Part shown: positions 10,878-26,996 of the stretch, in pieces | Position numbering within the stretch: position 1 is the first letter of the stretch | Layout: every line of letters begins with the position of its first letter | Assembly: GCF_000828655.1 (NCBI RefSeq) | Contig: NZ_AP014509.1 | Coordinates: 1,116,001 to 1,180,000 of the forward strand | DNA: 64,000 nucleotides | Direction: 5' to 3' | Source of the DNA: Thermotoga caldifontis AZM44c09 | Lineage (GTDB): Bacteria > Thermotogota > Thermotogae > Thermotogales > DSM-5069 | The notes under the pieces: model-generated | What the model saw: the letters and a program-made list of their open reading frames with translations, nothing else | Told to the model about the DNA's origin: nothing | The model's database searches: none | Made by a program: the position numbers and the translations under genes

Positions 10878-12092
10878 TTGAGGAGAGATCCGAAACGCTC
10901 GGATGGGAAGAAAACCTTCTCCGACTTGCTCGGCTCGGCCTTGGAACTTTTCGCAGTGCACGGTTATCACGCCGTCTCTGTTCCCATGATTTCTAAGAAG
11001 GCAGGTGTGAAGCCTCCAACCTTCTACCAGTATTTCAACAGCAAAGAGAGCATTCACGAAAGGTTGATCCAGGAAGCGTTCAACCTCTTTGTGGGCAGCA
11101 TGAGTACCATCAACGATGAAAATCCCAGATCACTCGTTGAAACTTTCATAAGGGCGTACGCCGCGTTCTTTTCAAACCACTTTCAGCATTTCCGCATCCT
11201 CCACGAAGCCGTCTATCTGAAGAGGAACCTCAAAAGAAAACTCGATCAAGTTCTGAGGACCAGAGTTGTGGAAAAACTCCTGCCGAACATCGAAGAGAAA
11301 GAAAAAAGGGTGGCCACTTGGTTCGTCACAGGTCCGATCAGATTCGCGTGCATATTCAGATCTCTTGTGGGAGAGCGGACGATCGAAGAAACGATGGTGG
11401 AAGACTTCGTTGAGCTCATCACCAGCGGCATCGATCCGGACGATCACGTTTTAGACAGCCGTGTTTTCAATGTGGATGTGAAACCTCTCACCGTTGAAAC
11501 CAGTTCAACCAAAGCACGCTTGCTTCAGGCTGCCGAAAGGCTCTTCGGAAAGTACGGATATCGGAACACGATGGTGAGTGACATCACAAAATTGGCGAAC
11601 GTTGCGGCTGGCACTTTCTACGTGTACTTTCAGAGTAAGGAATCCATACTCGAAGAGCTCGTGATGTCCACGAACAGGAACCTGAGGCTCACCATCGCGA
11701 GTGCGATAAAAGGTTTCACCGACAGGCGTGACGCCGAGATAGCGGGTTACAACGCGTTCCTGAAGTTCTTCCTGAACCATCCCAGCATGTATTCGGTTGT
11801 CAGGCAGGCTGAGTTTTTCAACTCCAGCATCTCGCGGATGTACTACGAGAAAATCTTCAACAGTTACCTTTCACCCCTGAACAAGGCGATCGAACTGAAC
11901 ATGATCAGACCCCTCAGAGCCACAAATCTTGCGGTTGCGCTCATGGGCATTGGCCATTTCATGGGAGAAGACCTCGTCGTCTACAGCAAGACGTCCCCGT
12001 CCCAGATCAACGATTATCTCTTCCTCCTCGCGCGCTACCTCTTCAAGGGCTTAGGGTCAGAGAAAGCGAGAACGAGCAACAGCGTGCAATAA
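10878..12092 (+). CDS. Tandem TetR-family transcriptional regulator (two TetR units in one chain)
   Basis: 404 residues, twice the usual TetR length. Two separate TetR helix-turn-helix domains are visible: residues 14-60 (ALELFAVHGY ... VKPPTFYQYFNSKESI) and 211-260 (AAERLFGKYGYRNTMV ... AAGTFYVYFQSKESI). Each is followed by its own helical ligand-type domain. This resembles a covalent TetR dimer. Start TTG at 10878 follows CAGGGGGAAG. It is transcribed in the same direction as the large LIV/KAS III cluster that begins 170 bases downstream and is the obvious candidate regulator of it. The effector is unknown. Confidence 0.88.
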   Translation: MRRDPKRSDGKKTFSDLLGSALELFAVHGYHAVSVPMISKKAGVKPPTFYQYFNSKESIHERLIQEAFNLFVGSMSTINDENPRSLVETFIRAYAAFFSNHFQHFRILHEAVYLKRNLKRKLDQVLRTRVVEKLLPNIEEKEKRVATWFVTGPIRFACIFRSLVGERTIEETMVEDFVELITSGIDPDDHVLDSRVFNVDVKPLTVETSSTKARLLQAAERLFGKYGYRNTMVSDITKLANVAAGTFYVYFQSKESILEELVMSTNRNLRLTIASAIKGFTDRRDAEIAGYNAFLKFFLNHPSMYSVVRQAEFFNSSISRMYYEKIFNSYLSPLNKAIELNMIRPLRATNLAVALMGIGHFMGEDLVVYSKTSPSQINDYLFLLARYLFKGLGSEKARTSNSVQ

Positions 12093-12177: not shown

Positions 12178-12246
12178 TTGCGTTTAGATTTCCAAAGGTG
12201 TTATGATATGTGGTGAATCATGTATCAGATTGACTGCTGGTTCACC
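12178..12246 (+). promoter_or_regulatory. Probable promoter and operator region of the LIV/KAS III cluster
   Basis: -35 TTGCGT (12178-12183), 18-base spacer, -10 TATGAT (12202-12207). Downstream lie GGTGAATC (12212-12219) and the inverted GGTTCACC (12239-12246), matching the half-site found before the tandem TetR gene. The rest of 12093-12177 shows nothing recognisable. Confidence 0.5.
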
Positions 12247-12262
12247 TTACAGGAGGGAAAAC

Positions 12263-13294
12263 ATGCAGGATCACGTGGGTATAGCCGGGATGGGAACGTA
12301 CCTTCCGAAACGGTATTTGAGTGCGAAAGAACTGGCTTCCTTGATCGGTATAGACGAAAAAGTTATCGTAGAAAAGTTCGGAATCAAAGGCAAGTATGTT
12401 CCAGCGGAGGATGACACTACGAGCCATATGGGCATCATGGCCGCAAGGGAGGCGATCAAAAACGCGCGAATCGATCCGGAGGAAATCGATGTTGTTATCT
12501 GGAACGGCGCGCAGCACAAAGATTATCCGTGCTGGCTCGCCTGTACTAAGGTTGCCCATGAAATCGGTGCGAAGCGCGCCTGGGCTTTCGACATGGAAGC
12601 GATGTGCGGTTCGATGATTGTGGGACTTCAAGTGGCGAGGTCCATCATGCTGAGTGAGAGGAACGTGAACACGGTTTTGCTGGTGAGCGGTTATCGAAAC
12701 GTCGATCTGGTGAATCATTCGTACAAACCAACCTCCTTCATGTTCGACATAGGTGCCAGCGGAGCGGCCGTGGTCCTCAGGAAGAATCTGGGTCAGAACG
12801 TCCTTCTGGGCGTCTCGAGCATCGTTGACGGATCTTTCGCGGAAGACTGTATCGTACCGGTCGGAGGCACCAAAAAGTGGCCGATGAAGCCTGAAGATCT
12901 CGACGAGTATTATTTTCATCTCGTGGATCCTGAATCATTCAAAGAGAGATTGAACAGCGTCACGTTGAAAAACTTCTATTCGGTAATAGACGACGCTCTG
13001 ATGAAGAGCGGCTTTTCCCGCAAAGACATATCGTACCTCGCCATACTCCATTTCAAGAGATCGGCACACCTCGAGGTGCTGGCTGAACTCGGTCTGAGGG
13101 AGGATCAGTCTTTCTACCTCGAAGATTACGGTCACATGGGACAGAACGATCAGATCTTTTCGTTGCAGGAAGGTTTGAAACGCGGAAGGATCAAAGATGG
13201 AGACGTGATCGTCCTGGTGGGAGCGGGCGTGGGCTGGACGTGGAACGCGGCGGTGCTGAGATGGGGAAAGATGAGGCAGCCCATCATGTGGTGA
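12263..13294 (+). CDS. KAS III-like (thiolase superfamily) acyl-CoA enzyme with modified active site
   Basis: 343-residue protein of the beta-ketoacyl-ACP synthase III/HMG-CoA synthase group. The N-terminus (VGIAGMGTYLPKRYL) is typical. The nucleophile is Cys115 (DMEAMCGSM). His263 (ILHFKRSAH) fits the catalytic histidine, but the usual Asn in YGNT is replaced by His291 (YGHMGQND). Ordinary decarboxylative condensation is therefore doubtful; acyl transfer, a Claisen-type reaction or its reverse are possible. ATG at 12263 is chosen because AGGAGGG lies five bases upstream and the family starts here; an upstream in-frame ATG at 12203 overlaps the promoter. It is first in the cluster. Confidence 0.8.
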   Translation: MQDHVGIAGMGTYLPKRYLSAKELASLIGIDEKVIVEKFGIKGKYVPAEDDTTSHMGIMAAREAIKNARIDPEEIDVVIWNGAQHKDYPCWLACTKVAHEIGAKRAWAFDMEAMCGSMIVGLQVARSIMLSERNVNTVLLVSGYRNVDLVNHSYKPTSFMFDIGASGAAVVLRKNLGQNVLLGVSSIVDGSFAEDCIVPVGGTKKWPMKPEDLDEYYFHLVDPESFKERLNSVTLKNFYSVIDDALMKSGFSRKDISYLAILHFKRSAHLEVLAELGLREDQSFYLEDYGHMGQNDQIFSLQEGLKRGRIKDGDVIVLVGAGVGWTWNAAVLRWGKMRQPIMW

Positions 13295-13306: not shown

Positions 13307-14608
13307 ATGGACTGGCGAGAAGTTTACAGGAGGAAACTGGTCGACATCGACAGAGTGCTGGACCTCGTTCGGAGCAATCAGACGATAGTCGTCGGAATGA
13401 CACCGATGGAACCCAAAGTCTTTCTGCGAAACCTTCACAGGGTCGCAGACAGGGTTGAGAACGTAACTGTGTTCACCTGTCTCAACATGGAGGAATATCC
13501 ATTCTACATGAGTGAGAGATACAGCAAAAGTTTTCAGAACGCATCCTGGTACTTCGGTGCCTCGAACAGACTGGCTGTGAAGAACAACTACGGAACGGTC
13601 AGCTACGTTCCGAACAACCTCCATCAGGCAGCAACGAACCTTCTGGACAGCAGGGATGTCGATCTCTTCGTGGGCGTCGCTTCGCCCATGGACAAAAACG
13701 GTTTTCTCACACTGTCAGCATCGGTTGTCTACGAAAAGGATGTGATGGAGAAGGCTAAAAAGGTAGTGCTCGAGGTCAACAGTAAGGCACCGAGAACACA
13801 TGGAGATACCCAGGTTCACATCAGCGAGGTAGACTACGTGATCGAAGTCGATTACGACTTGCCGGAGGCTGAACTCGTTGAGCCAACGGACATTGAATCG
13901 AAGATTGCGCATCATGTCAGTGAATTGATCGAAGATGGTTCCACTATCCAGATAGGCATCGGCGGGATACCAAACGCCGTTGCCAAATTGCTTTCCAGCA
14001 AAAGGGATCTTGGTGTTCACACGGAGATGTTCACCGAGTCCATGATAGACCTCTTCGAAATGGGGGTGATAACGAACAGAAAGAAGAGTTTGTGGAAAGG
14101 CAAGTTCGTCTGTGCGTTCGCTTTCGGCACGAAGAGGCTCTACAACTTCGTGGACGACAATCCTTCGGTGATGTTCCTGCGTGGAAGGTACGTGAACGAT
14201 CCGTACGTGATCGCACAGAACGAAAAGATGGTGAGCATCAACACGGCGCTCATGGTGGATCTGACAGGAAACGTCTGCTCCGAAGCTTTAGGCACACAGC
14301 ACTACAGCGGGACCGGCGGACAGCTCGATACCCACAGAGGAGCGGTGAAGAGTAAAAACGGTAAAGGTATCATCGCTTTGAGATCGACCGCGAAGAACGG
14401 CAGCGTTTCAACGATCGTGCCGCTCTTGCCGCAGGGTTCTCCCATCACCGTTCCCAGGCAAGAGCTGGACTACGTTGTCACCGAATGGGGCATCGCGCAC
14501 GTCAGGGGAAAAACCGTGAGGGAAAGAACCTTAGAACTCATCTCCATCGCTCATCCAGATTTCAGGGAAATGCTGCGGTTCGAAGCCAAAAAACTGGGTT
14601 TAATCTGA
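13307..14608 (+). CDS. Acetyl-CoA hydrolase/transferase family CoA transferase
   Basis: 433-residue protein of the acetyl-CoA hydrolase/4-hydroxybutyrate CoA-transferase type. It shows the paired domains of class I CoA transferases: GIGGIPNAVAKLL, then HTEMFTESMIDLFEMGVITN, where the glutamate is the likely CoA-thioester residue. The conserved GTGGQLD segment and VTEWGIAHVRGKT near the C-terminus are also present. It moves CoA between acetyl-CoA (or another acyl-CoA) and a carboxylic acid, a normal activation step for an imported acid. It lies 12 bases after the KAS III-like gene, with GAGGGGG before the ATG. Confidence 0.88.
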   Translation: MDWREVYRRKLVDIDRVLDLVRSNQTIVVGMTPMEPKVFLRNLHRVADRVENVTVFTCLNMEEYPFYMSERYSKSFQNASWYFGASNRLAVKNNYGTVSYVPNNLHQAATNLLDSRDVDLFVGVASPMDKNGFLTLSASVVYEKDVMEKAKKVVLEVNSKAPRTHGDTQVHISEVDYVIEVDYDLPEAELVEPTDIESKIAHHVSELIEDGSTIQIGIGGIPNAVAKLLSSKRDLGVHTEMFTESMIDLFEMGVITNRKKSLWKGKFVCAFAFGTKRLYNFVDDNPSVMFLRGRYVNDPYVIAQNEKMVSINTALMVDLTGNVCSEALGTQHYSGTGGQLDTHRGAVKSKNGKGIIALRSTAKNGSVSTIVPLLPQGSPITVPRQELDYVVTEWGIAHVRGKTVRERTLELISIAHPDFREMLRFEAKKLGLI

Positions 14609-14624
14609 TCGAAGGGGTGATATT

Positions 14625-15851
14625 ATGAAAAAGATCGTGGTCTCACTGCTGATCCTCTTCGCAGTCTTGAGTTTTGCACGAACCATCAAAATCGGTGCCG
14701 TTCTGCCGCTATCCGACATAACGGGAAGGCAAGCCGCGAACGCTATGAAGCTGGCGGTGAAAGAAGTCAACGAGGCAGGCGGTGTGCTCGGCATGCAACT
14801 GGAACTGTTCATCGTCGACGATGAGATGAAGCCAGAGAAGGGAGCTGCTGCGATCGACAGGCTCGCCACGGTAGAAAAAGTCGATTTCTTCGTCGGAGGC
14901 ATGTCCAGCAGCGTGCATCTCGCGCAGATACCCATACTGAAAAAGTACCAGAAGATAACAGTTTGGATAGGTGCCGCGTCCTACAGGTGCGAGGAAGCGA
15001 TAGGGCCAGACGCAGATTGGTACTTTCATCTGCATCCATGGGATTATCTGCAGGGTGAAAGCTACGCGCACGGCTGGCGGGCGATCACAGAAAAGTATCC
15101 TCAAGTGAAGATCGAAAAGATCTTCCTGGCTTACGAAGAAGGCGCCTTCGGAACGAGCTCGTTCAAATCGTACCAGGACGAGTTCGAACTCGCGAAGAAG
15201 GGAACGGGAGTTTGGACCGGCTTGATGAAGGACCTCAAGGGTGCTTCCTTCAAGAGTGCGGCGCTCGGAGGAGGAGACTACAGGGCGGTCCTTCTTCAGG
15301 CGAAACAGTACAATCCTGACCTGTTCATCTGGGCCGGTTACGATGCCGACGCGATACCCATTCTCGTTCAGGCCAAAGAGATAGGTTTCGCGCCAAAACT
15401 GTTCGTCGGAGCGCCTCCGGGATGGCCGGCAGATTTTGGTAAGAACCCGCTCTCTCACGGTGTCATTCTGTACGGCATGTGGGCACCGGCTTTGAAAGAT
15501 GTCAGTCCTGTCGCAAAACACTTCTGGGATGCGTACGTCAAGGAGTTCAACGAAGAACCGGCAACGTACTTCGCCCCGCTCGGATACACCAACATAATGT
15601 TCCTCGTCGAGGGCATCAAGAAAGCTGGTTCGCTCGACAGAGAAGCCATCATCAAAGCATTGAGGGAGATCGAGTACGATTCGCCGGTTGGAGGAGTCCT
15701 CAAGATCTCACCGAGCAGGATCATCAAGAACCAAGGTTTCAGGGCCCAGAAGATCTTGCAGTGGCAGAACGGCGTACAGCACGTGATCTGGCCTTTCGAG
15801 TATCAGACGGCGGAATTGATCTATCCTTTCCCTGGCTGGGAAGGTAGATAA
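14625..15851 (+). CDS. LIV-type ABC transporter substrate-binding protein 1
   Basis: 408-residue exported binding protein of the branched-chain amino acid/amide family (Peripla_BP_6). A signal peptide occupies about residues 1-19 (MKKIVVSLLILFAVLSFA), followed by TIKIGAVLPLSDITGRQ and AVKEVNEAGGVLG, the family hallmarks. It delivers an extracytoplasmic solute to the LivH/LivM permeases encoded next. Family members bind amino acids but also aromatic acids, urea and short amides. A strong hairpin lies just after the stop. The surrounding CoA transferase suggests an organic acid ligand, which is inference. Confidence 0.92.
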   Translation: MKKIVVSLLILFAVLSFARTIKIGAVLPLSDITGRQAANAMKLAVKEVNEAGGVLGMQLELFIVDDEMKPEKGAAAIDRLATVEKVDFFVGGMSSSVHLAQIPILKKYQKITVWIGAASYRCEEAIGPDADWYFHLHPWDYLQGESYAHGWRAITEKYPQVKIEKIFLAYEEGAFGTSSFKSYQDEFELAKKGTGVWTGLMKDLKGASFKSAALGGGDYRAVLLQAKQYNPDLFIWAGYDADAIPILVQAKEIGFAPKLFVGAPPGWPADFGKNPLSHGVILYGMWAPALKDVSPVAKHFWDAYVKEFNEEPATYFAPLGYTNIMFLVEGIKKAGSLDREAIIKALREIEYDSPVGGVLKISPSRIIKNQGFRAQKILQWQNGVQHVIWPFEYQTAELIYPFPGWEGR

Positions 15852-15858
15852 TTCGTAT

Positions 15859-15879
15859 GGCTGGGCCCCGTGCCCAGCC
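15859..15879 (+). other. Intercistronic hairpin after binding protein 1
   Basis: Perfect 8-bp stem GGCTGGGC / GCCCAGCC with loop CCCGT, eight bases after the stop codon and without a T-run. It probably stabilises the binding-protein mRNA or partly attenuates readthrough into the permease genes, raising the ratio of binding protein to permease. Confidence 0.6.
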
Positions 15880-15908
15880 GTTATCGAGTTCGAAAGAGGT
15901 GGAAGGGT

Positions 15909-16823
15909 GTGGACAAGAAAACGATCGGCTACATAGTTTTAGTTGTTGTGCTTCTCCTCGTTGCGTTGTTGAGACCGTACGCTTTTTTCTACGGCTTGCA
16001 GAGGGGCAGTCTCTACGGTTTGGTCGCTTTACCCCTGGCGCTCATACTCGGCATCGTTGGGCTCTTGAACTTAGCCCATGGTGAATTTTTGACGCTGTCA
16101 CTTTACCTCACTTACGTTCTTTTCGACAAGTTTGGAGTGGACCCAGCTGCTTCTTCTCTGTTAACGTTTCCCATCCTCTTTGCTTTCGGGCTGCTCGTGT
16201 ACAAACTTGTCATAGAGAGGTCTTTGAAATTCCACCATCTCAACCTTCTGCTCTTAACGTTCGGCGTCTCCATAGTCATGGTCGAATCGTTCAACATCCT
16301 GTGGACCTCCAGACCCAGGAACATATACACACCTTACGCGACGACATCGATCAGAGTTTTTGGCATCCACGTGGGCGCGTACGAGTTCGTATACACACTC
16401 TTGGCGTTCCTCGTGCTGGTAGGATTGCTCGTTTTCTTGAAGAAGACACGGTTGGGTCAGGCAGCTTACGCTGTTGGACAGAACCCGAAAGGTGCAGCCC
16501 TGGTGGGTATCAACGTTAAACTGGTGTACGCGTTCGTGTTCGGTCTTTCGGCGGCACTGGTGGCACTCGCAGGATCATTCCTGTCTGTGAGGAGTTCCAT
16601 CTTCCCGCACGTCGGGGGACCATTCACGATGAAATCTTTCAGCTTGACGGCGATGGCGGGCCTGGGGAATCTCTTCGGTATAGTGCTTGCCGGTATTGTG
16701 CTCGCGATCGCTGAGGAAGTCGTGAAATCCATACCGGGTTACGCGGGCTGGGCAGACCTGGTGTTCTTCGCTGTGCTAATAATCGCGATCGTCGTAAGGG
16801 CTTTTGGGAGGAGAGAAGGATGA
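15909..16823 (+). CDS. LIV-type ABC permease LivH, system 1
   Basis: 304-residue inner-membrane permease with about eight membrane segments. Characteristic LivH stretches are visible: YGLVALPLALILGIVGLLNL, AHGEFLTL, and GQNPKGAALVGINVKLVYAF in the cytoplasmic coupling loop. I take GTG at 15909 as the start because AGAGGTGG precedes it at good distance; an in-frame ATG at 15870 would put the start inside the intercistronic hairpin. It ends in an ATGA overlap with the LivM gene. It pairs with LivM, LivG and LivF encoded immediately downstream. Confidence 0.92.
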   Translation: MDKKTIGYIVLVVVLLLVALLRPYAFFYGLQRGSLYGLVALPLALILGIVGLLNLAHGEFLTLSLYLTYVLFDKFGVDPAASSLLTFPILFAFGLLVYKLVIERSLKFHHLNLLLLTFGVSIVMVESFNILWTSRPRNIYTPYATTSIRVFGIHVGAYEFVYTLLAFLVLVGLLVFLKKTRLGQAAYAVGQNPKGAALVGINVKLVYAFVFGLSAALVALAGSFLSVRSSIFPHVGGPFTMKSFSLTAMAGLGNLFGIVLAGIVLAIAEEVVKSIPGYAGWADLVFFAVLIIAIVVRAFGRREG

Positions 16824-17737
16824 GAATGAGATACATCTTTATACCGGCGATATGCGTGCTGTGCTTTGTGCTGCCCTTTTTCATCGACGCCTATCTCGTG
16901 CACGTGCTCACCTCGATCATGATCTTCCTATCCTTGGCGTTGAGCTGGGACATGATGCTGCGCACGGGCCAGCTTTCTTTTGGAATAGCCGGTTTCTTTG
17001 GCCTTGGTGCCTACGCTTCGATCATAGCTGTTGACGATTTTTCCGTTCATCCGATGCTGAGCATCCTTGTTGCCGCAGTCTTTGCAGCCCTCGTGGCCTT
17101 CGCCCTCGGATGGATAGTACTGAGGCTCAGGGAGATCTACTTCGCCATAACGACACTCGCGCTTTCGAGCGTTTTCATGATCTTTGCGAGGAACCTGAGC
17201 GATCTCACCGGTGGTTCTGCGGGAAAGGTACTATACGAATCGATTTTTGGTGGAGATCCCATCAGAACTTACTGGCTCGTCCTTTCGGTGACACTCGCAG
17301 TGATCCTGCTATCGGAAATTTTTCAGAGAAGCAGGATTCGCTTCGCGATCAACTCCATAAGGGACGATGAAATCTCGGCGAAGTGTTCTGGTGTGAACAT
17401 TTTCAAATATCTCCTGTTCGCCTTCGTGCTCACATCGGCCATTCAGGGTGCGGTTGGTGCACTTTACGCTCAACAGTACGCGTTCGTGGAACCAGAAAGC
17501 ACTTTCTCCGCGAACTTTCTGTTGCTCCCGATGTCGATGGCGCTGGTTGGTGGTATCTATTCGACCATCGGCCCAATCATAGGTGCCCTCGCCCTCGGGC
17601 TGGCCTCAGAATACCTCAAGTTGCTCATGCCCTACGGGCATTTGATCATCTACGGTTTGATCCTCATCGTGACGATACTGTTTTTACCGAGAGGCGTCTA
17701 CGGAACCATCACCGACAGAATGGTGAAGAAAAGGTAG
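16820..17737 (+). CDS. LIV-type ABC permease LivM, system 1
   Basis: 305-residue membrane permease. It contains the LivM signature ALSWDMMLRTGQLSFGIAGFFGLGAYAS, and the coupling loop with INSIRDDEISAKCSGVNIFKYLLFAF. Unlike the second LivM in this cluster it ends at the normal point after PRGVYGTI. The start ATG overlaps the LivH stop, with GGGAGGAG upstream. It forms the translocation pore with LivH. Confidence 0.93.
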   Translation: MRMRYIFIPAICVLCFVLPFFIDAYLVHVLTSIMIFLSLALSWDMMLRTGQLSFGIAGFFGLGAYASIIAVDDFSVHPMLSILVAAVFAALVAFALGWIVLRLREIYFAITTLALSSVFMIFARNLSDLTGGSAGKVLYESIFGGDPIRTYWLVLSVTLAVILLSEIFQRSRIRFAINSIRDDEISAKCSGVNIFKYLLFAFVLTSAIQGAVGALYAQQYAFVEPESTFSANFLLLPMSMALVGGIYSTIGPIIGALALGLASEYLKLLMPYGHLIIYGLILIVTILFLPRGVYGTITDRMVKKR

Positions 17738-17750
17738 GAGGTCCGATGCC

Positions 17751-18464
17751 GTGCTTTTGAGAACGCAGCGATTGACAAAGAGTTTCGGAGGTTTAGTGGC
17801 TGTCAAGCAGGTAGATCTTCAGATCGAATCGGGTGAGATACTGGGCATCATAGGCCCAAACGGGGCAGGCAAAACCACGCTGACAAATCTCATATCGGGT
17901 GTCTTCTATCCGAACGAGGGGCGTATCTATTTCGAAGAGAAGGACATCACCTTCATACCAGCCCACCTGCGGGCACGCATGGGCATAGCGAGAACCTTTC
18001 AGCTCGTGCGGCCGTTGAGGGATTTCACCGCTTTCGAAAACGTTATGGTTTCCTGCTTGTTTGCGAAAGGCGATTCTTTGCGGCAGGCGCGTGAGTCAGC
18101 GAGGAAGATATGTGACATGGTGGGTCTTGAAAATCCCGATAGACGTCTGGACAGGCTCACTGTGTTCGAGCTGAAAAAACTTGAAATTGCGAGGGCGCTC
18201 GGTTGTCAACCCAAGTTATTGATTCTCGACGAGGTCATGGCTGGCCTAAACTTCGAAGAGATGCAGAGTGTGGTAGCTCTGGTGAAATCTCTGAGGGAGA
18301 GACAGATAACGATCTGTGTGATCGAACACGTGATGAGCGTGATAAGTCAGCTCACGGATCGGGTGGTGGTCCTCGACAGAGGCGAGGTCATCGCTGAGGG
18401 TCCCTACGAGAAAGTGGCTCACGATCCAAAAGTCATCAGCGCCTATCTCGGGGAGGAAGCGTGA
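17751..18464 (+). CDS. LIV-type ABC ATPase LivG, system 1
   Basis: 237-residue nucleotide-binding subunit. Walker A GPNGAGKTT is at about residue 36, and LivG-typical GIARTFQLVRPL follows. The expected ABC signature region is unusual: the position before Walker B reads LTVFELKKLEIARALG rather than a clear LSGGQ. Walker B is LLILDEVMAGL. The start is GTG at 17751 after AGGAGG. The degenerate signature is not unusual for LivG proteins, which often have LSYGxQR, but this one is further from consensus. Confidence 0.92.
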   Translation: MLLRTQRLTKSFGGLVAVKQVDLQIESGEILGIIGPNGAGKTTLTNLISGVFYPNEGRIYFEEKDITFIPAHLRARMGIARTFQLVRPLRDFTAFENVMVSCLFAKGDSLRQARESARKICDMVGLENPDRRLDRLTVFELKKLEIARALGCQPKLLILDEVMAGLNFEEMQSVVALVKSLRERQITICVIEHVMSVISQLTDRVVVLDRGEVIAEGPYEKVAHDPKVISAYLGEEA

Positions 18465-19171
18465 TGTTGAAGATAGAAGGTCTGAACGCCGCTTACGGGA
18501 GGATACGGGTTCTCTGGGACGTTTTTCTCGAGGTGAACGAAAAGGAGGCTGTTGGACTGTTCGGTCCCAACGGGGCCGGTAAAACTACCCTCGTGAACTG
18601 TGTTGTTGGACTTCTGAGGCCGATGTCCGGGAGGATCATCTTTCAGGGAAGGGATATAACTGGCATGGAAACGCACGAAATCGTCAAACTTGGAATCTCT
18701 CTGGTACCGCAGGAGCGTGAACTTTTTCCCGGAATGACGGTTGAGGAAAATCTGAGGGCTGGGGCGAACTACATTCCGCATGCGCGTGCGAGGATGAACG
18801 AAGCCTTCGATCTGGTGTTCACACTGTTTCCGATCTTGAAGGAGAGGTCCAGACAGAAAGTTGGCACGATGAGTGGTGGACAACAGAGAATGGTTGCCGT
18901 TGCGAGGGCTTTGATGTCATTTCCAAAGCTGTTGATACTCGACGAACCTTCCGTTGGTCTACAGCCTTCCATCGTGTCGGAACTGTTTTCGAAATTGCGT
19001 GAGATAAAAGATTATGGGGTTTCGATCCTTCTCATAGAACAGAACGTCAAACAGGGTTTAAAGGTTGTTGAGAGAGGCTACGTTCTTGAAAACGGTAGAA
19101 TAGTGTTGCAGGACTCTTCTGTCAATTTGATGAATCACGGTCATGTTAAGAAAGCCTATCTCGGTCTGTAG
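18464..19171 (+). CDS. LIV-type ABC ATPase LivF, system 1
   Basis: 235-residue second ATPase. Walker A GPNGAGKTT, signature MSGGQQRM, Walker B LLILDEPSVGL and the LivF hallmark ISLVPQERELFPGMTVEENL are all present. ATG at 18464 sits six bases after GGAGGA and overlaps the LivG stop; GTG at 18461 is an alternative. It completes an intact binding protein-LivH-LivM-LivG-LivF importer. Confidence 0.94.
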   Translation: MLKIEGLNAAYGRIRVLWDVFLEVNEKEAVGLFGPNGAGKTTLVNCVVGLLRPMSGRIIFQGRDITGMETHEIVKLGISLVPQERELFPGMTVEENLRAGANYIPHARARMNEAFDLVFTLFPILKERSRQKVGTMSGGQQRMVAVARALMSFPKLLILDEPSVGLQPSIVSELFSKLREIKDYGVSILLIEQNVKQGLKVVERGYVLENGRIVLQDSSVNLMNHGHVKKAYLGL

Positions 19172-19186
19172 AAAGGAGTGGTATGA

Positions 19187-19933
19187 ATGAGGCTGGAAGG
19201 GAAAGTGTGCATCATCACGGGTGCGGCGAGCGGGATTGGCAGAGCGGCAAGCTTGCTGTTCGCCAAAGAGGGAGCAACTGTCTGCGCGTGTGACGTGTCC
19301 GAACAGGCGTTGAACAAACTCGTCGAGGATGCGAAAGGTCTTCCCGGTTCCATCGATCCCTACGTGCTCGACGTGACGAACAGGGAGCAGGTCTTCAAAA
19401 CCGTGGAGCAGATCGCGACGAAGTACGGGAAGATCGATGTTCTCGTGAACAACGCGGGAATAACCAGAGACGCTCTGCTCGTCAAGATGACCGAAGAAGA
19501 ATGGGACGCGGTGATCAACGTCAATCTGAAAGGCGTTTTCAACATGACACAGGCGGTCGCACCGTACATGATCAAGGCTCAGAAAGGTTCGATCATCAAC
19601 ACTTCTTCCGTCGTGGGCATCTATGGAAACATCGGTCAGACCAACTACGCTGCTACAAAGGGTGGAGTCATAGCCATGACGAAGACATGGGCGAAGGAGC
19701 TCGCGCGCAAAGGCGCGCAGATAAGGGTGAACGCGGTCGCACCTGGATTCATAAGAACGCCCATGACAGAGAAGGTTCCCGAAAAGGTCATCGAAGCCGT
19801 GCTGAGCAGAACTCCGCTGGGGCGCATGGGTGAACCCGAAGAAGTGGCGTACGTCTATCTGTTCCTGGCGAGCGATGAATCGTCCTTCGTCACGGGTCAG
19901 GTGATAGGTGTCGACGGGGGTCTAACGTTCTGA
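19187..19933 (+). CDS. Short-chain dehydrogenase/reductase (FabG-like)
   Basis: 248-residue classical SDR. NAD(P) motif TGAASGIGRA (about residues 10-19), NNAG at about 88, catalytic Ser in INTSSVVGI and YAATK with the catalytic Tyr and Lys, and a C-terminal TGQVIGVDGG, all as in 3-oxoacyl-ACP reductases. It interconverts a 3-oxo and a 3-hydroxyacyl group or another ketone/alcohol pair. Its position between two LIV importers and near KAS III-like and CoA-transferase genes suggests a catabolic role on the imported compound rather than fatty acid synthesis. Confidence 0.9.
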   Translation: MRLEGKVCIITGAASGIGRAASLLFAKEGATVCACDVSEQALNKLVEDAKGLPGSIDPYVLDVTNREQVFKTVEQIATKYGKIDVLVNNAGITRDALLVKMTEEEWDAVINVNLKGVFNMTQAVAPYMIKAQKGSIINTSSVVGIYGNIGQTNYAATKGGVIAMTKTWAKELARKGAQIRVNAVAPGFIRTPMTEKVPEKVIEAVLSRTPLGRMGEPEEVAYVYLFLASDESSFVTGQVIGVDGGLTF

Positions 19934-19958: not shown

Positions 19959-21119
19959 GTGAAGAAGGCGCTCGTTGCGTTAATGTTGCTGACCGCGCTC
20001 TTTGTCTTCGCAGAAGTGGGTGTCTATCCAGACAAGATCGTCGTTGGAACGTTCCAGGCTCTCTCCGGACCGTACGCCGTGATAGGTCAGGAGATGTCCA
20101 AGGGCTTGCTCGCCTACTTCAACTGGGTCAACAAGAACGGCGGAGTTTACGGCAGGAAGATCGAACTCATCATAGCGGACGATCAGCTCAATCCGACCAA
20201 GACCGTCGTTGAGGTCAAGAGGCTCGTCGAGTCTGACAAAGTCTTCGCGATCGTTGGAGGTCTCGGCACCTACGGCTGTCTCGCCGTCATGGACTATCTG
20301 GAACAGAACAAGGTACCATTCGTCTACCAGGGTGCCGGTACGAGTTTGCTGGTGGTCCCACCGAAGAGGTACATCTTTGGAGTTCAGCCGGACTACACGC
20401 TCGAAGGGCAATTGATCGCGAAGTTCCTCGTCGAGAACCTGAAAAAGAAGAAGATCGGAGTAATCTACATGGCCAACGACGTGGGTAAAGAAGGTCTGGC
20501 CGCGGTGAAGATGAGGCTTGAAAAGTACGGTATGAAGCCCGCCTTAGAAATCGCTTACAACCCACTTGAAACCGACTACAGTGCCTTGGCGATAGACGTT
20601 CTGAACGTTTCACCCGATGCCATCGTGATATACGGTTTCATCACAGACACCGTCAGGTGGATCAAAACACTCAGAGATTATGGAATAGGCGCCGACATCG
20701 TCACAACCTACGCCAACGCCGATCCGAGTTTCATAAACCTTGCCGGTAAGTACGCCGAAGGTGTGTACCTGACCGGATGGGTCCCGCTGCCGACGCCGGA
20801 CCGACCGGAGTTCGTCAGGGACTATCAGAGGGCGGTCGCGATATTCCAAGAGAGCTATCCGAACCAGATCATGTCTTCTTATGCGGTTGCTGGTTTCATA
20901 GCCGCCGAGGTGTTCGTCGCCGGCCTGGTGAAAGCGGGCCCAGACCTGACGAGGGAAAAGCTTGTTGAAACGCTCGAAACCTTCAAGAACTGGAACGGCA
21001 TCCTGGCCAAGGACATCACCTGGGGTCCAGGGCTCAGAAGGGGTAAATCGACGATGTACTTCATGAAGATCGAAAACGGTGTCTTCACACCGGTCACAGA
21101 TCTGATAGGACTCGACTGA
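19959..21119 (+). CDS. LIV-type ABC transporter substrate-binding protein 2
   Basis: 386-residue exported binding protein. The signal peptide is MKKALVALMLLTALFVFA, then VYPDKIVVGTFQALSGPYAVIG and FNWVNKNGGVYGRKIEL, as in Peripla_BP_6 proteins. It is clearly distinct in sequence from binding protein 1, so the two importers probably take different ligands or different size classes of one. The GTG start follows GAGGGGGG. A GC-rich hairpin overlaps the stop. Confidence 0.92.
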   Translation: MKKALVALMLLTALFVFAEVGVYPDKIVVGTFQALSGPYAVIGQEMSKGLLAYFNWVNKNGGVYGRKIELIIADDQLNPTKTVVEVKRLVESDKVFAIVGGLGTYGCLAVMDYLEQNKVPFVYQGAGTSLLVVPPKRYIFGVQPDYTLEGQLIAKFLVENLKKKKIGVIYMANDVGKEGLAAVKMRLEKYGMKPALEIAYNPLETDYSALAIDVLNVSPDAIVIYGFITDTVRWIKTLRDYGIGADIVTTYANADPSFINLAGKYAEGVYLTGWVPLPTPDRPEFVRDYQRAVAIFQESYPNQIMSSYAVAGFIAAEVFVAGLVKAGPDLTREKLVETLETFKNWNGILAKDITWGPGLRRGKSTMYFMKIENGVFTPVTDLIGLD

Positions 21120-21139
21120 GGAGGGGTTTGCCCCTCCTC
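21118..21139 (+). other. Intercistronic hairpin after binding protein 2
   Basis: Perfect 9-bp stem GAGGAGGGG / CCCCTCCTC with loop TTTG, beginning in the stop codon. No long T-run follows. It occupies the same position as the hairpin after binding protein 1, suggesting the same expression-balancing role. Confidence 0.6.
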
Positions 21140-21160: not shown

Positions 21161-21931
21161 TTGGCGCTGTTGAAGATAGAATCGCTCACGGTTCGCTTCG
21201 GTGGCCTCGTGGCAGTGGACAGCTTTTCAATGATCGTTCAAAAAGGAACGATTCATTCCCTCATCGGACCCAACGGGGCTGGAAAGACGACAGTTTTCAA
21301 CGCGATAACTCGCGCCGTGAAGGTTCATTCTGGAAGTATTGAACTCGACGGTGTCGAGCTGACGCGTGTTCCACCGCATCGGATCGTTTCAATGGGTGTT
21401 GCGAGGACCTTCCAGAACGTCGCCGTGTTCAAGTACCTCACCGTGCTGGACAACCTTTACCTTGGATACCACCACAGGATCGAGGGAGGATTGCTGAACG
21501 ATCTGGTCTTTACGAAACGCAGGCTCGTTCAAAGTTACGAGATGTACAGAGAAGCTTTAGAAATTGCGGATTTTCTCAATCTGAAGAGTCGATTGCTGAG
21601 CTATGCGGGTACCATACCTTACTTCCATCAAAAACTGGTAGAGATAGGCCGCGCTTTGATGGCGAAACCCAAACTGTTGCTTCTGGACGAACCTGCCGCC
21701 GGACTCAACGAAGTGGAGACGGATCAGCTCGTGAACATCATAAGGCGCATCAGGGATGAGCTGGGGATCACCGTTCTACTCATCGAGCATGACATGCGTG
21801 TGGTGATGGATATTTCTGACATGGTGACCGTGATGGATTTCGGAAAGAAGATCTCTGAGGGTCTTCCACAAGAGGTTCAAAAAGATCCAAAGGTGATAAG
21901 CGCTTATCTGGGAGAGATCCAGAGTGCTTGA
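21161..21931 (+). CDS. LIV-type ABC ATPase LivG, system 2
   Basis: 256-residue ATPase with Walker A GPNGAGKTT (about 38), GVARTFQNVAVF, and Walker B LLLLDEPAAGLN. The signature position reads IPYFHQKLVEIGRAL, again far from LSGGQ, as in the other LivG here. The longer central insertion (KYLTVLDNLYLGYHHR) is LivG-like. TTG start at 21161. Gene order G-F-H-M in this system differs from H-M-G-F in system 1, so they are not a simple tandem duplication. Confidence 0.92.
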   Translation: MALLKIESLTVRFGGLVAVDSFSMIVQKGTIHSLIGPNGAGKTTVFNAITRAVKVHSGSIELDGVELTRVPPHRIVSMGVARTFQNVAVFKYLTVLDNLYLGYHHRIEGGLLNDLVFTKRRLVQSYEMYREALEIADFLNLKSRLLSYAGTIPYFHQKLVEIGRALMAKPKLLLLDEPAAGLNEVETDQLVNIIRRIRDELGITVLLIEHDMRVVMDISDMVTVMDFGKKISEGLPQEVQKDPKVISAYLGEIQSA

Positions 21932-22625
21932 GGTCAGGAACGTGACCGTCACGTATGGTCCTGTGGTCGCCGTGAAGAATGTTTCTCTGAGGGTGGAGAA
22001 GAACTCCATCGTGGCGATCCTCGGAGCGAACGGCTCGGGGAAAACGTCCCTGCTCCATGCGATCGTTGGATTGAACAAGATCGCTTCGGGCGAAATACTC
22101 TTCGATGGCGAACGTATCGACAGATTCGAGGCGCACGAGGTCGTCAAGCGTGGTCTGGTTCTCTGTCCCGATAACAGGATGGTCTTTCAAAAGATGACCG
22201 TGCTGGAAAACTTACTTGCCGGTGCCTATCTCAGAAAGGAAGATCTGTCTCAAGATCTTGATTTCGTCTTCAACCTGTTTCCAAGACTCAGGGAACGTTT
22301 GAAGCAGAAGGCAGGAACCCTTTCGGGAGGAGAACGGCAGATGCTCGCCATCGCCAGGGCGCTGATGGCGAAACCGAAACTATTCATGCTCGACGAACCA
22401 TCCACGGGGCTCGCACCGAATCTGGTGAGCGAGATCATGAAGGCGATAAAGCAGATAAACGAGCTCGGCATAACGATCCTTCTGGTCGAACAGAGTGCCT
22501 ACGCAGCCCTGAGGATCGCCCATTACGCTTACGTGCTCCAAACCGGCAGACTGGTCATGGAAGGACCCTCTGAACAGCTCATCAAGGACAGTTCGGTGAT
22601 TCAAAGCTATCTGGGGGGAAGATGA
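21924..22625 (+). CDS. LIV-type ABC ATPase LivF, system 2
   Basis: 233-residue ATPase. Walker A GANGSGKTS, signature LSGGERQM, Walker B LFMLDEPSTGL, and the LivF-like LVLCPDNRMVFQKMTVLENL. GTG start at 21924 overlaps the LivG end by eight bases and its stop overlaps the LivH start. It pairs with LivG of the same system. Confidence 0.93.
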   Translation: MLEVRNVTVTYGPVVAVKNVSLRVEKNSIVAILGANGSGKTSLLHAIVGLNKIASGEILFDGERIDRFEAHEVVKRGLVLCPDNRMVFQKMTVLENLLAGAYLRKEDLSQDLDFVFNLFPRLRERLKQKAGTLSGGERQMLAIARALMAKPKLFMLDEPSTGLAPNLVSEIMKAIKQINELGITILLVEQSAYAALRIAHYAYVLQTGRLVMEGPSEQLIKDSSVIQSYLGGR

Positions 22626-23504
22626 GTGCTTCTGAACAGGATCGTTCTTGGATTGTCGAGTGGAAGCTTCTATTCGCTCGCGGCGATCGGTATCGTGCTC
22701 ATCTTCAAGGTGACAGGCTTGATGAACTTCGCGTACGGGAACATGGCCATGTTCATGGCGTACGTCACGTACACGCTGGTTTCGTTGGGGCTCGGTCCCT
22801 GGCCCGCACTCGCCGTTGTGATAGCCGTCAGCATGCTCTTCGGTTACGTTGTGGAACGTTTCACCCTGAGGCCTCTGCGGAAGCTTTCGCACGGTTCCAT
22901 GCTCATAGTCACCTTCGGACTGCTCATGATCTTAGAAGGACTCGCGACGCAGATATGGGGCACGCAGTACAAATCGTTGCCAGAACTGATAACTGGCAGA
23001 CCCTTCATCTTGAGGGGTAACTTCGGCATAGTCGTGTTCAGAAGGCAGGATTTGCTTTTGTTCGCAGTCCTCGCCATCGTTTCACTGACGATTTTTCTTC
23101 TGTACAGGTTCACCAAGATAGGCATCGCGATGCGAGCCGTCTCGGAGAACGAGAAAGCGGCCCAGCTCATGGGCATCAATCCGAACAGGGTGATCAGTTA
23201 TTCATGGATGGTTGGAACTGCCATCGGAACACTGGTAGCCGTGCTCGGTGCTCCGAGAACTTACGTTGCTCCGACGATGATGATCTACTACCAGCTGCAG
23301 GGCTTCACCGCGGCCGTTCTGGGCGGTTTCGACAGTCTGTTGGGAGCCGTGTGCGGAGGGCTCGCACTGGGCGTGATAGAGAATCTGATCGGTGGTTACA
23401 TAAGCAACGAGCTGAAGACGACGCTCTCTCTGGCGATCATCGTGGTCATACTCTTGATCAGACCTCAGGGTATGTTCGGCAGTGAAGAGATCAGGAGAGT
23501 GTGA
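22626..23504 (+). CDS. LIV-type ABC permease LivH, system 2
   Basis: 292-residue permease with about eight membrane segments. LivH features: SGSFYSLAAIGIVLIFKVTG, FAYGNMAMF, the coupling loop AMRAVSENEKAAQLMGINPN, and a C-terminal KTTLSLAIIVVILLIRPQG. GTG start immediately follows the LivF stop. It partners the LivM-hydrolase fusion encoded next. Confidence 0.93.
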   Translation: MLLNRIVLGLSSGSFYSLAAIGIVLIFKVTGLMNFAYGNMAMFMAYVTYTLVSLGLGPWPALAVVIAVSMLFGYVVERFTLRPLRKLSHGSMLIVTFGLLMILEGLATQIWGTQYKSLPELITGRPFILRGNFGIVVFRRQDLLLFAVLAIVSLTIFLLYRFTKIGIAMRAVSENEKAAQLMGINPNRVISYSWMVGTAIGTLVAVLGAPRTYVAPTMMIYYQLQGFTAAVLGGFDSLLGAVCGGLALGVIENLIGGYISNELKTTLSLAIIVVILLIRPQGMFGSEEIRRV

Positions 23505-23508
23505 AACC

Positions 23509-25206
23509 ATGAAATGGTTACTGCTCGTTGTCCTTTTTGCGTTGCCGTTCTTGCCAAGGATCAGTGGCTTCGTGTTGACCTTGTTGAACCTGACGCTGAT
23601 CTATTCCATAGCGGCGATGGGTCTGAATTTGATCATGGGCTATGCCGGACAGATCTCGATAGGTCATGCGGCTTTCATGAGCGTTGGTGCCTACACTTCT
23701 GCGATCCTCGTGCAACGTTTCTCCGTACCCATTCCTTTCTCGATCCTCACCGCCGTAGTCCTCGGAGCGATCTTCGGCATGGTTTTAGGTTTCCCTGCGT
23801 TGAGATTGAAGGGCTTTTACCTGGCGATAGTGACGATGGGATTCGTCGTGGCGATCGAGCAGCTCTTCGGCGCCTGGGAGAAGTTCACCGGCGGGCACAT
23901 CGGAATGAGAAACATCAGGCTCTTCGGGAGCGACACGGTGAGTTACTATGTCAACCTCTTGATCCTTCTGGCCTGTTTCTATCTGTTCCGGCTCATCGTC
24001 ACAGGGAAAACGGGGAGGGCGCTCGCGGCGATCAGGGAAAACGAATTGGTCGCTCGCATCTTCGGTGTCAACCTGACCTATCACAAAGTCGTAGCGTTCA
24101 GTGTGGGCTCCGCGTTCGCGGCGCTCGCCGGGGCGCTCTACGCACACACGATAGGTTACATAGCCCCGAGCCTCTTTGGTCTTTCCAAATCCCTGGATCT
24201 GCTCGCGATGGTGGTGATCGGTGGCTTAGCCTTAGAGATCGGACCGTTTTTTGGTGCGGCGCTGTACACCGTACTTCCCTTCCTTTTCAGCAGGAGTGGT
24301 TTTTCGCTCTCCATAATCTTCGGTTCGATACTCATCATCACCGTTCTGTTCATGCCGCGCGGTATCGCCTATTATGCGATGAACTTCTGGTTGATGTGGG
24401 GAGAATTGCCCATCGTGTGGCTCAAGAGAAGGCTTGGCAAACCAGCTGGCAAGTTCGTTGAAACGTCGCTTGGGCGAATACACTACGTGGAAGCTGGTGA
24501 AGGAAGACCGTTGATATGCATCCACGGGAACTTCGGTTCGCTGAGATGGTTCGAACCCATTCTGGGGAAAATTCAGAATTTCAAAACCATCGCGCTGGAC
24601 CTGCCGAACTTCGGTTTCTCCGACAGGAACACCCCGAGCATCGAGGCCTACACCAAGGCTGTGGAAGCATTCATTGAAAAGCTCAATTTGAAAGATGTGG
24701 TTGTTCTCGCGCACTCTCTCGGTGGGGCAGTCGGTATGAAGCTGGCTCTCGAAAGGCCAGATCTCGTCAAAGCTTTGATCTTAGTCGATCCTTGTCCGAT
24801 CGACGGCTTACCCACACCGACTGAGAACCTTGCCTATCTGGAGTTCTACAAGAGGAACAGATCGATCCTGAGAAGGTCTCTCTACGGTCTGTTGAAGATC
24901 GTGAAAGATAGAAAGTTCGTTGAACAGCTGGTCGACGACGCTTTGAGGATGAATCCGGATGCGGTGTACGCGCACGCGGAGGAACTGGCAAAGTTCAACC
25001 TTACAGACCGTGTGGACAATTACCGTGTGAAAACGTTAGTCGTGTGGGGAGACATGGATCCGCTGCTCACGCGCGAACAGATGGAGAAAACAGCGAAGTG
25101 TTTGAACGCCGAGTTCGTTGTGTTCAACAACCTGGGGCACACTCCGTTCGTCGAAGCGCCGGTCGTCTTTCTGGAAAGAGTTGAAAGCTTTTTGAAGGGG
25201 GTGTGA
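23509..25206 (+). CDS. LivM permease fused to an alpha/beta hydrolase
   Basis: 565 residues. Residues 1-290 are a full LivM permease (MGLNLIMGYAGQISIGHAAF; coupling loop AAIRENELVARIFGVN; ending MPRGI). After a linker of about 25 residues with a further hydrophobic stretch (MNFWLMWGELPIVWL), residues 316-565 form an alpha/beta hydrolase. It has an oxyanion segment HGNF (339-342), nucleophile Ser403 in AHSLGG, probable Asp517 in WGDMDP and His544 in LGHTPF, so the triad looks intact. The reading frame is continuous. ATG at 23509 follows AGGAGAG. I know of no standard LivM with such a domain; it may hydrolyse the solute as it enters the cytoplasm. Confidence 0.88.
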   Translation: MKWLLLVVLFALPFLPRISGFVLTLLNLTLIYSIAAMGLNLIMGYAGQISIGHAAFMSVGAYTSAILVQRFSVPIPFSILTAVVLGAIFGMVLGFPALRLKGFYLAIVTMGFVVAIEQLFGAWEKFTGGHIGMRNIRLFGSDTVSYYVNLLILLACFYLFRLIVTGKTGRALAAIRENELVARIFGVNLTYHKVVAFSVGSAFAALAGALYAHTIGYIAPSLFGLSKSLDLLAMVVIGGLALEIGPFFGAALYTVLPFLFSRSGFSLSIIFGSILIITVLFMPRGIAYYAMNFWLMWGELPIVWLKRRLGKPAGKFVETSLGRIHYVEAGEGRPLICIHGNFGSLRWFEPILGKIQNFKTIALDLPNFGFSDRNTPSIEAYTKAVEAFIEKLNLKDVVVLAHSLGGAVGMKLALERPDLVKALILVDPCPIDGLPTPTENLAYLEFYKRNRSILRRSLYGLLKIVKDRKFVEQLVDDALRMNPDAVYAHAEELAKFNLTDRVDNYRVKTLVVWGDMDPLLTREQMEKTAKCLNAEFVVFNNLGHTPFVEAPVVFLERVESFLKGV

Positions 25207-25210
25207 ATCG

Positions 25211-26194
25211 ATGAAGTACGCCAGGATAATCTCTTCGGGCAGGTACGTGCCAGGCAAGATCATGACGAACCAGGAATTCGAGCGGCTGGTTCACGTCACG
25301 ATCGATCCTTACTTCACCGAGCAGATCGGCATCAACCACAGACACCTTTCCAGTGAGGAAGAGACACCAACGTTCATGGCGGCTGAAGCTGCGAAGAGGG
25401 CGCTCGAAAGGATCAACATGAAACCGGAACAGATCGATCTGATCATCGTCGGCACAGACACCCCGGAGGCCATTTCGCCACCGGACGCCGCGAGGGTTCA
25501 GTACCTGATCGGCGCGCACAGGGCCGAACCGTTGGCGTTCAACGTCAACGCTTCCTGCGCCAACGGAGCGTTGTTGCTGGACATCGCGTCGCGTTACATC
25601 GCATTGGGGGATTACAGGAACGTGCTGGTGATAGGTGTGTACGCCATGACCAAATTCCTGAGCTGGAAATATTCGTGGGAGGCGCTTTTCTCGGACGGAG
25701 CGGGCGCACTGATCCTCACCGCCGCGGACGAGCCGGGATATCTGGGAAGCGTTGCGCGGTGTGATGGTAGCTGGTGGTACAACTGGGGCATATACATGGG
25801 CGCCGGCACGATGAACCTCAACGGTTTCGAGAGAGGTTTACACAAGCTCGACCTGCGCGCGGCGTACCCGGCCACCGTGAACGAAGAAGGCTGGCCGATG
25901 CTTCTGAACCGTCTCATGCAGAAGTGCAATTTCACGAGAGAAGACATCGGCATGATCTTCTTCACCCAGGTGAGGAAGAAGACCATACAGAAGGTCATGG
26001 AAACGATGGGTCTGCCAGAAGAGAAGGCGCACATGATCATGCACAAGTATGGTTATACAGGCTCCGCGTGCGTCTACATGGCTTACGATGATGCGTACGA
26101 TGAGGGAAAGCTCGAAGGATTGCGGGGAAAAGTCATCATATTCCTGACCTCTGGAGTGGGTTATCAGCAGGTCGCGGTGGCGTTCAGAATGTGA
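25211..26194 (+). CDS. KAS III-like protein 2, active-site His and Asn not conserved
   Basis: 327-residue thiolase-superfamily protein of KAS III type. N-terminal ARIISSGRYVPGKIMTN and IGINHRHLSSEEE are typical, and Cys116 lies in the strongly conserved NASCANGALLLDI context. The catalytic His of HQAN is replaced (FTQVRKK, Thr252) and the Asn of YGNT is replaced (YGYTGSA, Tyr282). The cysteine alone could still accept an acyl group. It lies four bases after the permease-hydrolase fusion. It might form a heteromer with the first KAS III-like protein, as partly degenerate KAS III partners do in some other systems; that is inference. Confidence 0.82.
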   Translation: MKYARIISSGRYVPGKIMTNQEFERLVHVTIDPYFTEQIGINHRHLSSEEETPTFMAAEAAKRALERINMKPEQIDLIIVGTDTPEAISPPDAARVQYLIGAHRAEPLAFNVNASCANGALLLDIASRYIALGDYRNVLVIGVYAMTKFLSWKYSWEALFSDGAGALILTAADEPGYLGSVARCDGSWWYNWGIYMGAGTMNLNGFERGLHKLDLRAAYPATVNEEGWPMLLNRLMQKCNFTREDIGMIFFTQVRKKTIQKVMETMGLPEEKAHMIMHKYGYTGSACVYMAYDDAYDEGKLEGLRGKVIIFLTSGVGYQQVAVAFRM

Positions 26195-26204
26195 GGTGGA
26201 AGCA

Positions 26205-26996
26205 ATGTTCAGGACCTCTGACGGTGTCGAGATCGATTACGAATTCCACCCGGGCCAGGGGGACGTGGTCGTTCTCTTAAACGGAATCTTCATGAACATG
26301 AGAAGCTGGGATTTTCTCTCGAGGGACCTCAGGGATCGTTACTCGCTGCTGTTGCACAATTTCAGATGCCAGTGGTCTTCATCCAACGGGGCGTGTTCCT
26401 TCGAAAGGCACGTTCGGGATCTGAAAGAGCTCTGCGACTCTTTGAAGATAGACCGTTTCCACCTGGTCGGTACCTCGTACGGTGCGGAGGTCGGGATGCT
26501 CTTCGCGGCAGAACATCCTGAAATGGTCAAGAGCCTCGTGGTCATAACGGCCACGGCGCGAGTGACTCCCCACATACGTAACTGTGCGTTGCGCTGGAGA
26601 GCGGGGGCTGAGACGAAAGATCCCACGAAATTCGTGATCAGCTGGTTGAACGATGTCTACAGCGAAAGTTTCCTGGACTCACACCCAGAACTTCTGAATT
26701 CCATCGTTTCACGGATGGAGGATTTCAACTTTGAAGGCACCGTGATGTTGCTCGATTCTTTTCTCCAAATGGAGCGTTCGCCGATTTTGGAAGAACTCGG
26801 AAAGATAGAGTGTCCCACGCTCGTAGTGTACGCTGAACACGACAGAATCAAACCACCGCGCTTTTCACACGAAATCGCCGCGCACATCAAAAACTCCGTT
26901 CTCGTCTGCGTACCGGATTCAGGCCACGCGGTGGTGGTAGAAAAACCGAGAACGATCTCTTACTTAGTCAGGGCGCATCTGAATTCATTCGCTTGA
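26205..26996 (+). CDS. Alpha/beta hydrolase
   Basis: 263-residue soluble hydrolase. Nucleophile Ser in GTSYGAEVG, Asp in VVYAEHDRIK and His in PDSGHAVVVE form the expected triad; LLNGIFMNMRSW holds the oxyanion hole. ATG at 26205 has GAGGTGG five bases upstream; GTG at 26196 overlaps that site and is less likely. It closes the LIV/KAS III cluster and converges on cutA, with a 12-base overlap of the 3' ends. It is a second hydrolase beside the one fused to LivM; substrate unknown, probably an ester, lactone or 1,3-diketone-type compound. Confidence 0.85.
   Translation: MFRTSDGVEIDYEFHPGQGDVVVLLNGIFMNMRSWDFLSRDLRDRYSLLLHNFRCQWSSSNGACSFERHVRDLKELCDSLKIDRFHLVGTSYGAEVGMLFAAEHPEMVKSLVVITATARVTPHIRNCALRWRAGAETKDPTKFVISWLNDVYSESFLDSHPELLNSIVSRMEDFNFEGTVMLLDSFLQMERSPILEELGKIECPTLVVYAEHDRIKPPRFSHEIAAHIKNSVLVCVPDSGHAVVVEKPRTISYLVRAHLNSFA

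Follow-up and report, generated by a model that had tools for sequence, protein, structure and literature searches.

The window analyzed here is a stretch of 64,000 nucleotides from Thermotoga caldifontis AZM44c09, and it carries a cassette in which the last gene of a Liv-type ABC importer is continuous, in one frame, with an alpha/beta hydrolase. The features are as follows, in window positions.

10878-12092, plus strand: double TetR/FadR-like regulator (NF053878 below its cutoff; conserved in the cassette)
12203-13294, plus strand: KASIII-like 3-oxoacyl synthase, PRK06840 (NF005308, 484 bits; cutoff, 315)
13307-14608, plus strand: CoA-transferase of the acetyl-CoA hydrolase/transferase family (PF13336, PF02550; TIGR03948 at 291 bits, below the equivalog cutoff)
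14625-19171, plus strand: second Liv system, consisting of SBP1 (14625-15851), LivH1, LivM1 (16820-17737, without hydrolase), LivG1, and LivF1 (translations, Pfam)
19187-19933, plus strand: FabG-type short-chain dehydrogenase, a 3-oxoacyl reductase (TIGR01830, 317 bits; cutoff, 298)
19959-21119, plus strand: Liv-type substrate-binding protein SBP2 (PF13458)
21161-21931, plus strand: LivG-type ATPase (translation, synteny)
21924-22625, plus strand: LivF-type ATPase (translation, synteny)
22626-23504, plus strand: LivH permease partner, unfused (translation, Pfam, NCBIfam)
23509-25206, plus strand: LivM::alpha/beta-hydrolase fusion gene, 565 aa (translation, Pfam, orthologues)
23509-24357, plus strand: LivM permease domain, residues 1-283 (PF02653; BtuC-like model)
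24358-24453, plus strand: linker, residues 284-315 (positively charged; modelled as two short helices, with no transmembrane segment; dN/dS, 0.07-0.10)
24454-25203, plus strand: alpha/beta hydrolase domain, residues 316-565 (PF00561; closest solved chain, PHB depolymerase 8ynv)
24715-24717, plus strand: codon of catalytic Ser403 (motif AHSLG; conserved among fusions)
25057-25059, plus strand: codon of catalytic Asp517 (motif DMDPL; conserved among fusions)
25138-25140, plus strand: codon of catalytic His544 (motif LGHTP; conserved among fusions)
25211-26194, plus strand: second KASIII-like protein (PF08541/PF08545)
26196-26996, plus strand: second alpha/beta hydrolase, unfused (PF00561)

The two KASIII-like proteins that flank the cassette are different from each other, and the one at 12203-13294 scores above the PRK06840 cutoff. 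A 9-pair GC-rich hairpin (GAGGAGGGGTTTGCCCCTCCTC) at 21118-21139 starts at the SBP2 stop codon, ahead of LivG, and might reduce read-through, leading to an excess of binding protein.

The ATG of the fusion gene at 23509 has AGGAG upstream and lies four bases beyond the LivH stop codon (23504), and from there a single stop-free frame of 565 residues extends to 25206. It was predicted from the letters of the DNA that this frame would hold a complete LivM followed by a complete alpha/beta hydrolase with a Ser403-Asp517-His544 triad, and that the other LivM of the cluster would lack the hydrolase. All of this was confirmed: BPD_transp_2 (PF02653) matched residues 22 to 261 (138.5 bits; cutoff, 26.8), Abhydrolase_1 (PF00561) matched residues 334 to 551 (92.1 bits; cutoff, 25.8), the triad residues are at the predicted positions and are invariant in 40 of 40 nonredundant fusions, and Pfam found no hydrolase domain in LivM1 (305 aa). 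The PF02653 score, together with an operon that includes a binding protein, LivG, LivF, and LivH, places the protein among the Liv-type ABC permeases; likewise, the PF00561 score and the Ser-acid-His triad place the second domain in the alpha/beta hydrolase superfamily. Membership does not extend to the LivM subfamily model PRK11301, against which the fusion scored 142.9 bits (curated cutoff, 366).

The LivM-hydrolase fusion is real and is kept across most of the Thermotogota. In a profile search the junction was read through in one frame in 52 of 103 species genomes of the phylum, a hand count from the search table in which a few frames end at contig ends. The fusion is intact within the genus at 78 to 93% identity (one copy is cut by a contig end), and it recurs at 58 to 62% identity in the same family and at about 43 to 51% in other families of the phylum. 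Comparison with the closest relative, which is 93% identical, gave dN/dS values of 0.11 (LivM), 0.07 (linker), and 0.12 (hydrolase); therefore, purifying selection acts on all three parts as a single protein. The sequence-only reading had allowed for a stop codon or frameshift near position 24400, or for homologues that are always two genes, and the fusion survived this examination, with single-frame relatives in the genus, the family, and other families. That an assembly or sequencing error joined two genes has a probability close to nil and was rejected, since orthologues carry the same fusion, in one frame in those 52 species genomes, and since purifying selection has acted on the linker. 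In one genome (G006, L094:10740-11240) a repeat of about 480 bases, with 59 matches in that genome and apparently the remnant of a multicopy mobile element, disrupts the fusion gene.

Fusions were seen solely in the Thermotogota in the collections that we covered. A scan of 84,980 species (A2) returned 52 loci and no fusion outside this phylum, with patterns that were derived from Thermotogota and that distant independent fusions could escape. No fusion was found in 111 genomes of the phylum that contains the Trueperaceae, and none that covered 80% of the query was found in 72,556 plasmids.

On which side of the membrane the hydrolase lies depends on the linker, in which a further hydrophobic stretch had been suspected from the sequence. 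As a membrane segment this stretch did not hold up: residues 285 to 305 reach a Kyte-Doolittle maximum of only 0.91 over 19 residues, and AlphaFold2, which modelled the full-length protein with confidence (mean pLDDT, 91.6; pTM, 0.80), placed two short helices there (residues 286 to 298 and 300 to 309). The segment that follows the last membrane helix has a mean net charge of +6.4 and never falls below +3. LivM residues 1 to 283, for which a separate LivM-only model was obtained (pLDDT, 89.7; pTM, 0.90), superpose on residues 18 to 324 of BtuC (1l7v; Z score, 14.7; rmsd, 4.5; 257 aligned residues), a distant fold match. The C terminus of BtuC is cytoplasmic. Because of this superposition and the positive charge after the last helix, the hydrolase is most likely cytoplasmic as modelled; an extra transmembrane helix that would put it outside was rejected on the grounds of hydropathy, model, and charge.

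The nearest structurally solved relatives of the hydrolase domain are PHB depolymerases. A profile search ranked PHB depolymerase 8ynv/8ynw first (3e-43, 151 bits), ahead of the next family (7.5e-30, 107 bits), and 8ynv was also the top match by single sequence and by Foldseek. In VIA-align the PHB depolymerase gave a Z score of 33.6 (rmsd, 1.9; 254 aligned residues), with other esterases close behind (Z score, 32.5). The best NCBIfam model for the domain was NF050089, for intracellular scl-PHA depolymerases, at 100.6 bits against a cutoff of 300; the fused hydrolase is therefore a relative, not a member, of that family.

The cassette that the fusion closes is conserved: it comprises a KASIII-like synthase, a FabG-type reductase, a CoA-transferase, and often a thiolase, followed by the binding protein, LivG, LivF, LivH, and, last, LivM::hydrolase. 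Within up to 20 kb of 32 fused loci, some of them cut by contig ends, we counted a CoA-transferase near 27, a KASIII near 26, the double TetR/FadR-like regulator near 26, a FabG-type reductase near 19, and a thiolase near 14. T. caldifontis itself has a single thiolase, encoded elsewhere than in the cassette, and its genome has no evident extracellular PHB depolymerase (PF10503, 1.7e-4, below its cutoff). For both binding proteins, no close relative with a known hydroxybutyrate ligand was found among the nearest solved structures.

A search of the Thermotogota placed a PHA depolymerase model above its cutoff in 11 genomes, all from one family (f9), which we take to be the Petrotogaceae. In 4 of the 11 (G096, G085, G097, and G095; loci L151 to L154), PhaZ heads a codirectional run of PhaZ, KASIII, reductase, CoA-transferase, thiolase, SBP1, and Liv genes. 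The three of these PhaZ proteins that were scanned scored 449 to 456 bits (NCBIfam cutoff, 300), with that of G096 at 449 bits and 2.7e-103 to 8ynv. In G096 and G085 (L151/L107 and L152/L123) the run continues on one strand through LivHMGF, a chemoreceptor, and SBP2-LivGFH to LivM::hydrolase. The methyl-accepting chemotaxis protein that thus lies between two Liv systems in these Petrotogaceae-like genomes (L151:1025-3025 and L152:18583-20000) may act as a receptor for the compound that is taken up. Elsewhere (L155:7161-10515), two nearby genes encode PHA depolymerases, one of them with a hydrophobic stretch at its N terminus, perhaps a signal peptide. PHA synthase PhaC (PF07167) was found in none of the 103 Thermotogota genomes; therefore, the polyester must come from outside, and PhaZ cannot draw on a PHB store that the cell itself has synthesized through PhaC. 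For the Petrotogaceae-like PhaZ, oligomers taken up from outside are the simplest substrate.

This gene context suggests a coherent job for the fused hydrolase. The use of 3-hydroxybutyrate requires activation with CoA, oxidation by an (R)-3-hydroxyacyl-type reductase, and thiolysis. Since a CoA-transferase, a FabG-type reductase, and a thiolase match these needs, we propose, at about even confidence, that the system is a Liv importer of 3-hydroxybutyrate oligomers (PHB breakdown products) or a close relative, with a tethered esterase that cuts in the cytoplasm. LivM::hydrolase, LivH, LivG, LivF, and SBP2 would import the short oligomers or their relative, and the tethered hydrolase would cleave their ester bond on entry into the cytoplasm. 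The hydroxy acid thus released would be activated by the CoA-transferase, the FabG-type reductase would oxidize the hydroxyacyl product to acetoacetyl-CoA, and the thiolase encoded elsewhere in the genome would yield acetyl-CoA. The tether may provide local capture and a low inside concentration of oligomer. We infer the substrate, catalysis, channelling, and coupling of cleavage to transport. Several results count against the proposal: the subthreshold PHA depolymerase score of the fused hydrolase, the near tie with other esterases in structure, the binding proteins' lack of a close solved relative with a hydroxybutyrate ligand, the subthreshold PF10503 match in this genome, the CoA-transferase score below its equivalog cutoff, and the untethered hydrolases of Mesotoga and Athalassotoga.

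The same layout and mechanism could instead serve an ester or lactone of another short hydroxy or keto acid, a reading with an appreciable probability that is well short of even. It is consistent with the subthreshold PHA depolymerase score of the fused hydrolase, with a Trueperaceae cluster that, as read from sequence, has an acyl-CoA synthetase-like gene in place of the CoA-transferase, and with the KASIII-like proteins, which have no clear role in 3-hydroxybutyrate use. Weighing against it are the above-cutoff PhaZ in the same gene run of Petrotogaceae-like genomes and the rank of a PHB depolymerase as the nearest solved relative by several methods.

Lineages that carry the two activities on separate genes bear on what the tether does. 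In the Athalassotoga group (L115 to L118), LivM and the hydrolase are neighboring genes with spacers of 60 to 313 nt, and the hydrolase starts are preceded by ribosome-binding-site-like sequence. In L111 to L114 (family f11), which we infer to be Mesotoga, with the Kosmotogaceae record L060 among the grounds, a solo hydrolase gene lies directly 3' of the other Liv system, SBP1-LivHMGF, and this system and the solo hydrolase stand where the fused system stands elsewhere. Export of the Mesotoga hydrolase was considered and rejected: the apparent hydrophobic extensions at the N terminus show little conservation, and the domain is preceded by a conserved internal Met; the open reading frame rule has therefore most likely misplaced the start. 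In the hydrolase tree, the Mesotoga solo proteins are nested beside fused Kosmotogaceae proteins (SH-aLRT, 99 and 97); those of Athalassotoga stand beside a fused relative (SH-aLRT, 99). This topology, in which the deepest forks are poorly resolved and four changes are needed in all, would fit one old fusion followed by later splits. Outside the Thermotogota, only solo relatives were found; they adjoin Liv genes in the Trueperaceae (Deinococcota) and in one deltaproteobacterium. Long frames near the solo hydrolase in Deinococcota bins (L075, L079, and L080) suggest either that LivM- and LivG-type parts are fused or that frames overlap.

The separate genes of Mesotoga and Athalassotoga show that the tether is dispensable and cannot be essential. 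The idea that the tethered hydrolase acts on the imported solute stands in part: the enzyme looks intact, it is cytoplasmic by prediction, and its gene is tied to Liv genes even where it is unfused, but strict coupling is opposed by these two lineages. Vectorial hydrolysis, in which cleavage would drive transport or trap the product, is possible. More specifically, and only tentatively, the permease may hand 3-hydroxybutyrate oligomers to its own esterase, and cleavage at the inner mouth would keep the gradient directed inward, as a hydrolytic counterpart to group translocation.

The separate genes, of which that of Mesotoga accompanies the other Liv paralogue, also agree with a plainer explanation, in which the hydrolase works in the pathway as an ordinary cytoplasmic esterase and the fusion merely fixes stoichiometry or coexpression, with cleavage uncoupled from transport. 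We regard this as unlikely, because the single frame and the constrained linker persist throughout the phylum, in relatives as distant as about 43% identity, even though the two parts can evidently be separated. A sensor or transporter-regulating role for the hydrolase domain, with no enzymatic part in the pathway, is very improbable: receptor-like alpha/beta hydrolases exist and D14 was among the structural matches, but the triad is complete in all 40 fusions, and D14 ranks below esterases and has no special link to this system.

To our knowledge, little is known about transport systems dedicated to PHB oligomers, and none came up in the literature searched; nor do we know of a thermophilic anaerobe of the Thermotogota that is recognized as a PHB user. 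A cassette that occurs throughout the phylum and links a Liv importer with PHB-type hydrolases would provide a testable candidate for PHB oligomer uptake. If the proposal is true, it would also be a rare instance of an ABC importer whose permease chain includes a catalytic domain, and what tethering contributes could be examined in Mesotoga and Athalassotoga, where the same parts are naturally unfused. We found no report of the fusion architecture or of PHB oligomer uptake in Thermotogota in the literature searched, in which few subscription journals are represented; it is very likely that automated databases already list such proteins.

Among known systems, the LivHMGF branched-chain amino acid importers (LivM/PRK11301 and UrtC) share with the fusion the LivM fold, LivG, LivF, LivH, and a Peripla_BP_6 binding protein. 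The fusion differs in its 250-residue hydrolase on the cytoplasmic C terminus, in falling short of the LivM model (143 bits; cutoff, 366), and in its neighbors, which are short-chain acyl-CoA genes and not amino acid genes. PhaZ (NF050089; 8ynv/8ynw from Bacillus thuringiensis) shares the alpha/beta hydrolase fold and the Ser-Asp-His triad and is the best match by profile and structure; however, the fused hydrolases are 26 to 29% identical to it, are joined to a permease, and have the serine motif GHSLGG or AHSLGG rather than GWSMGG. Unlike the PHA-storing hosts of PhaZ, the Thermotogota have no PHA synthase that we could find. LplT-Aas proteins are fusions of a lysophospholipid importer and an acyltransferase; like the protein described here, they combine a transporter and an enzyme for its cargo in one chain, but both the transporter class and the chemistry differ.
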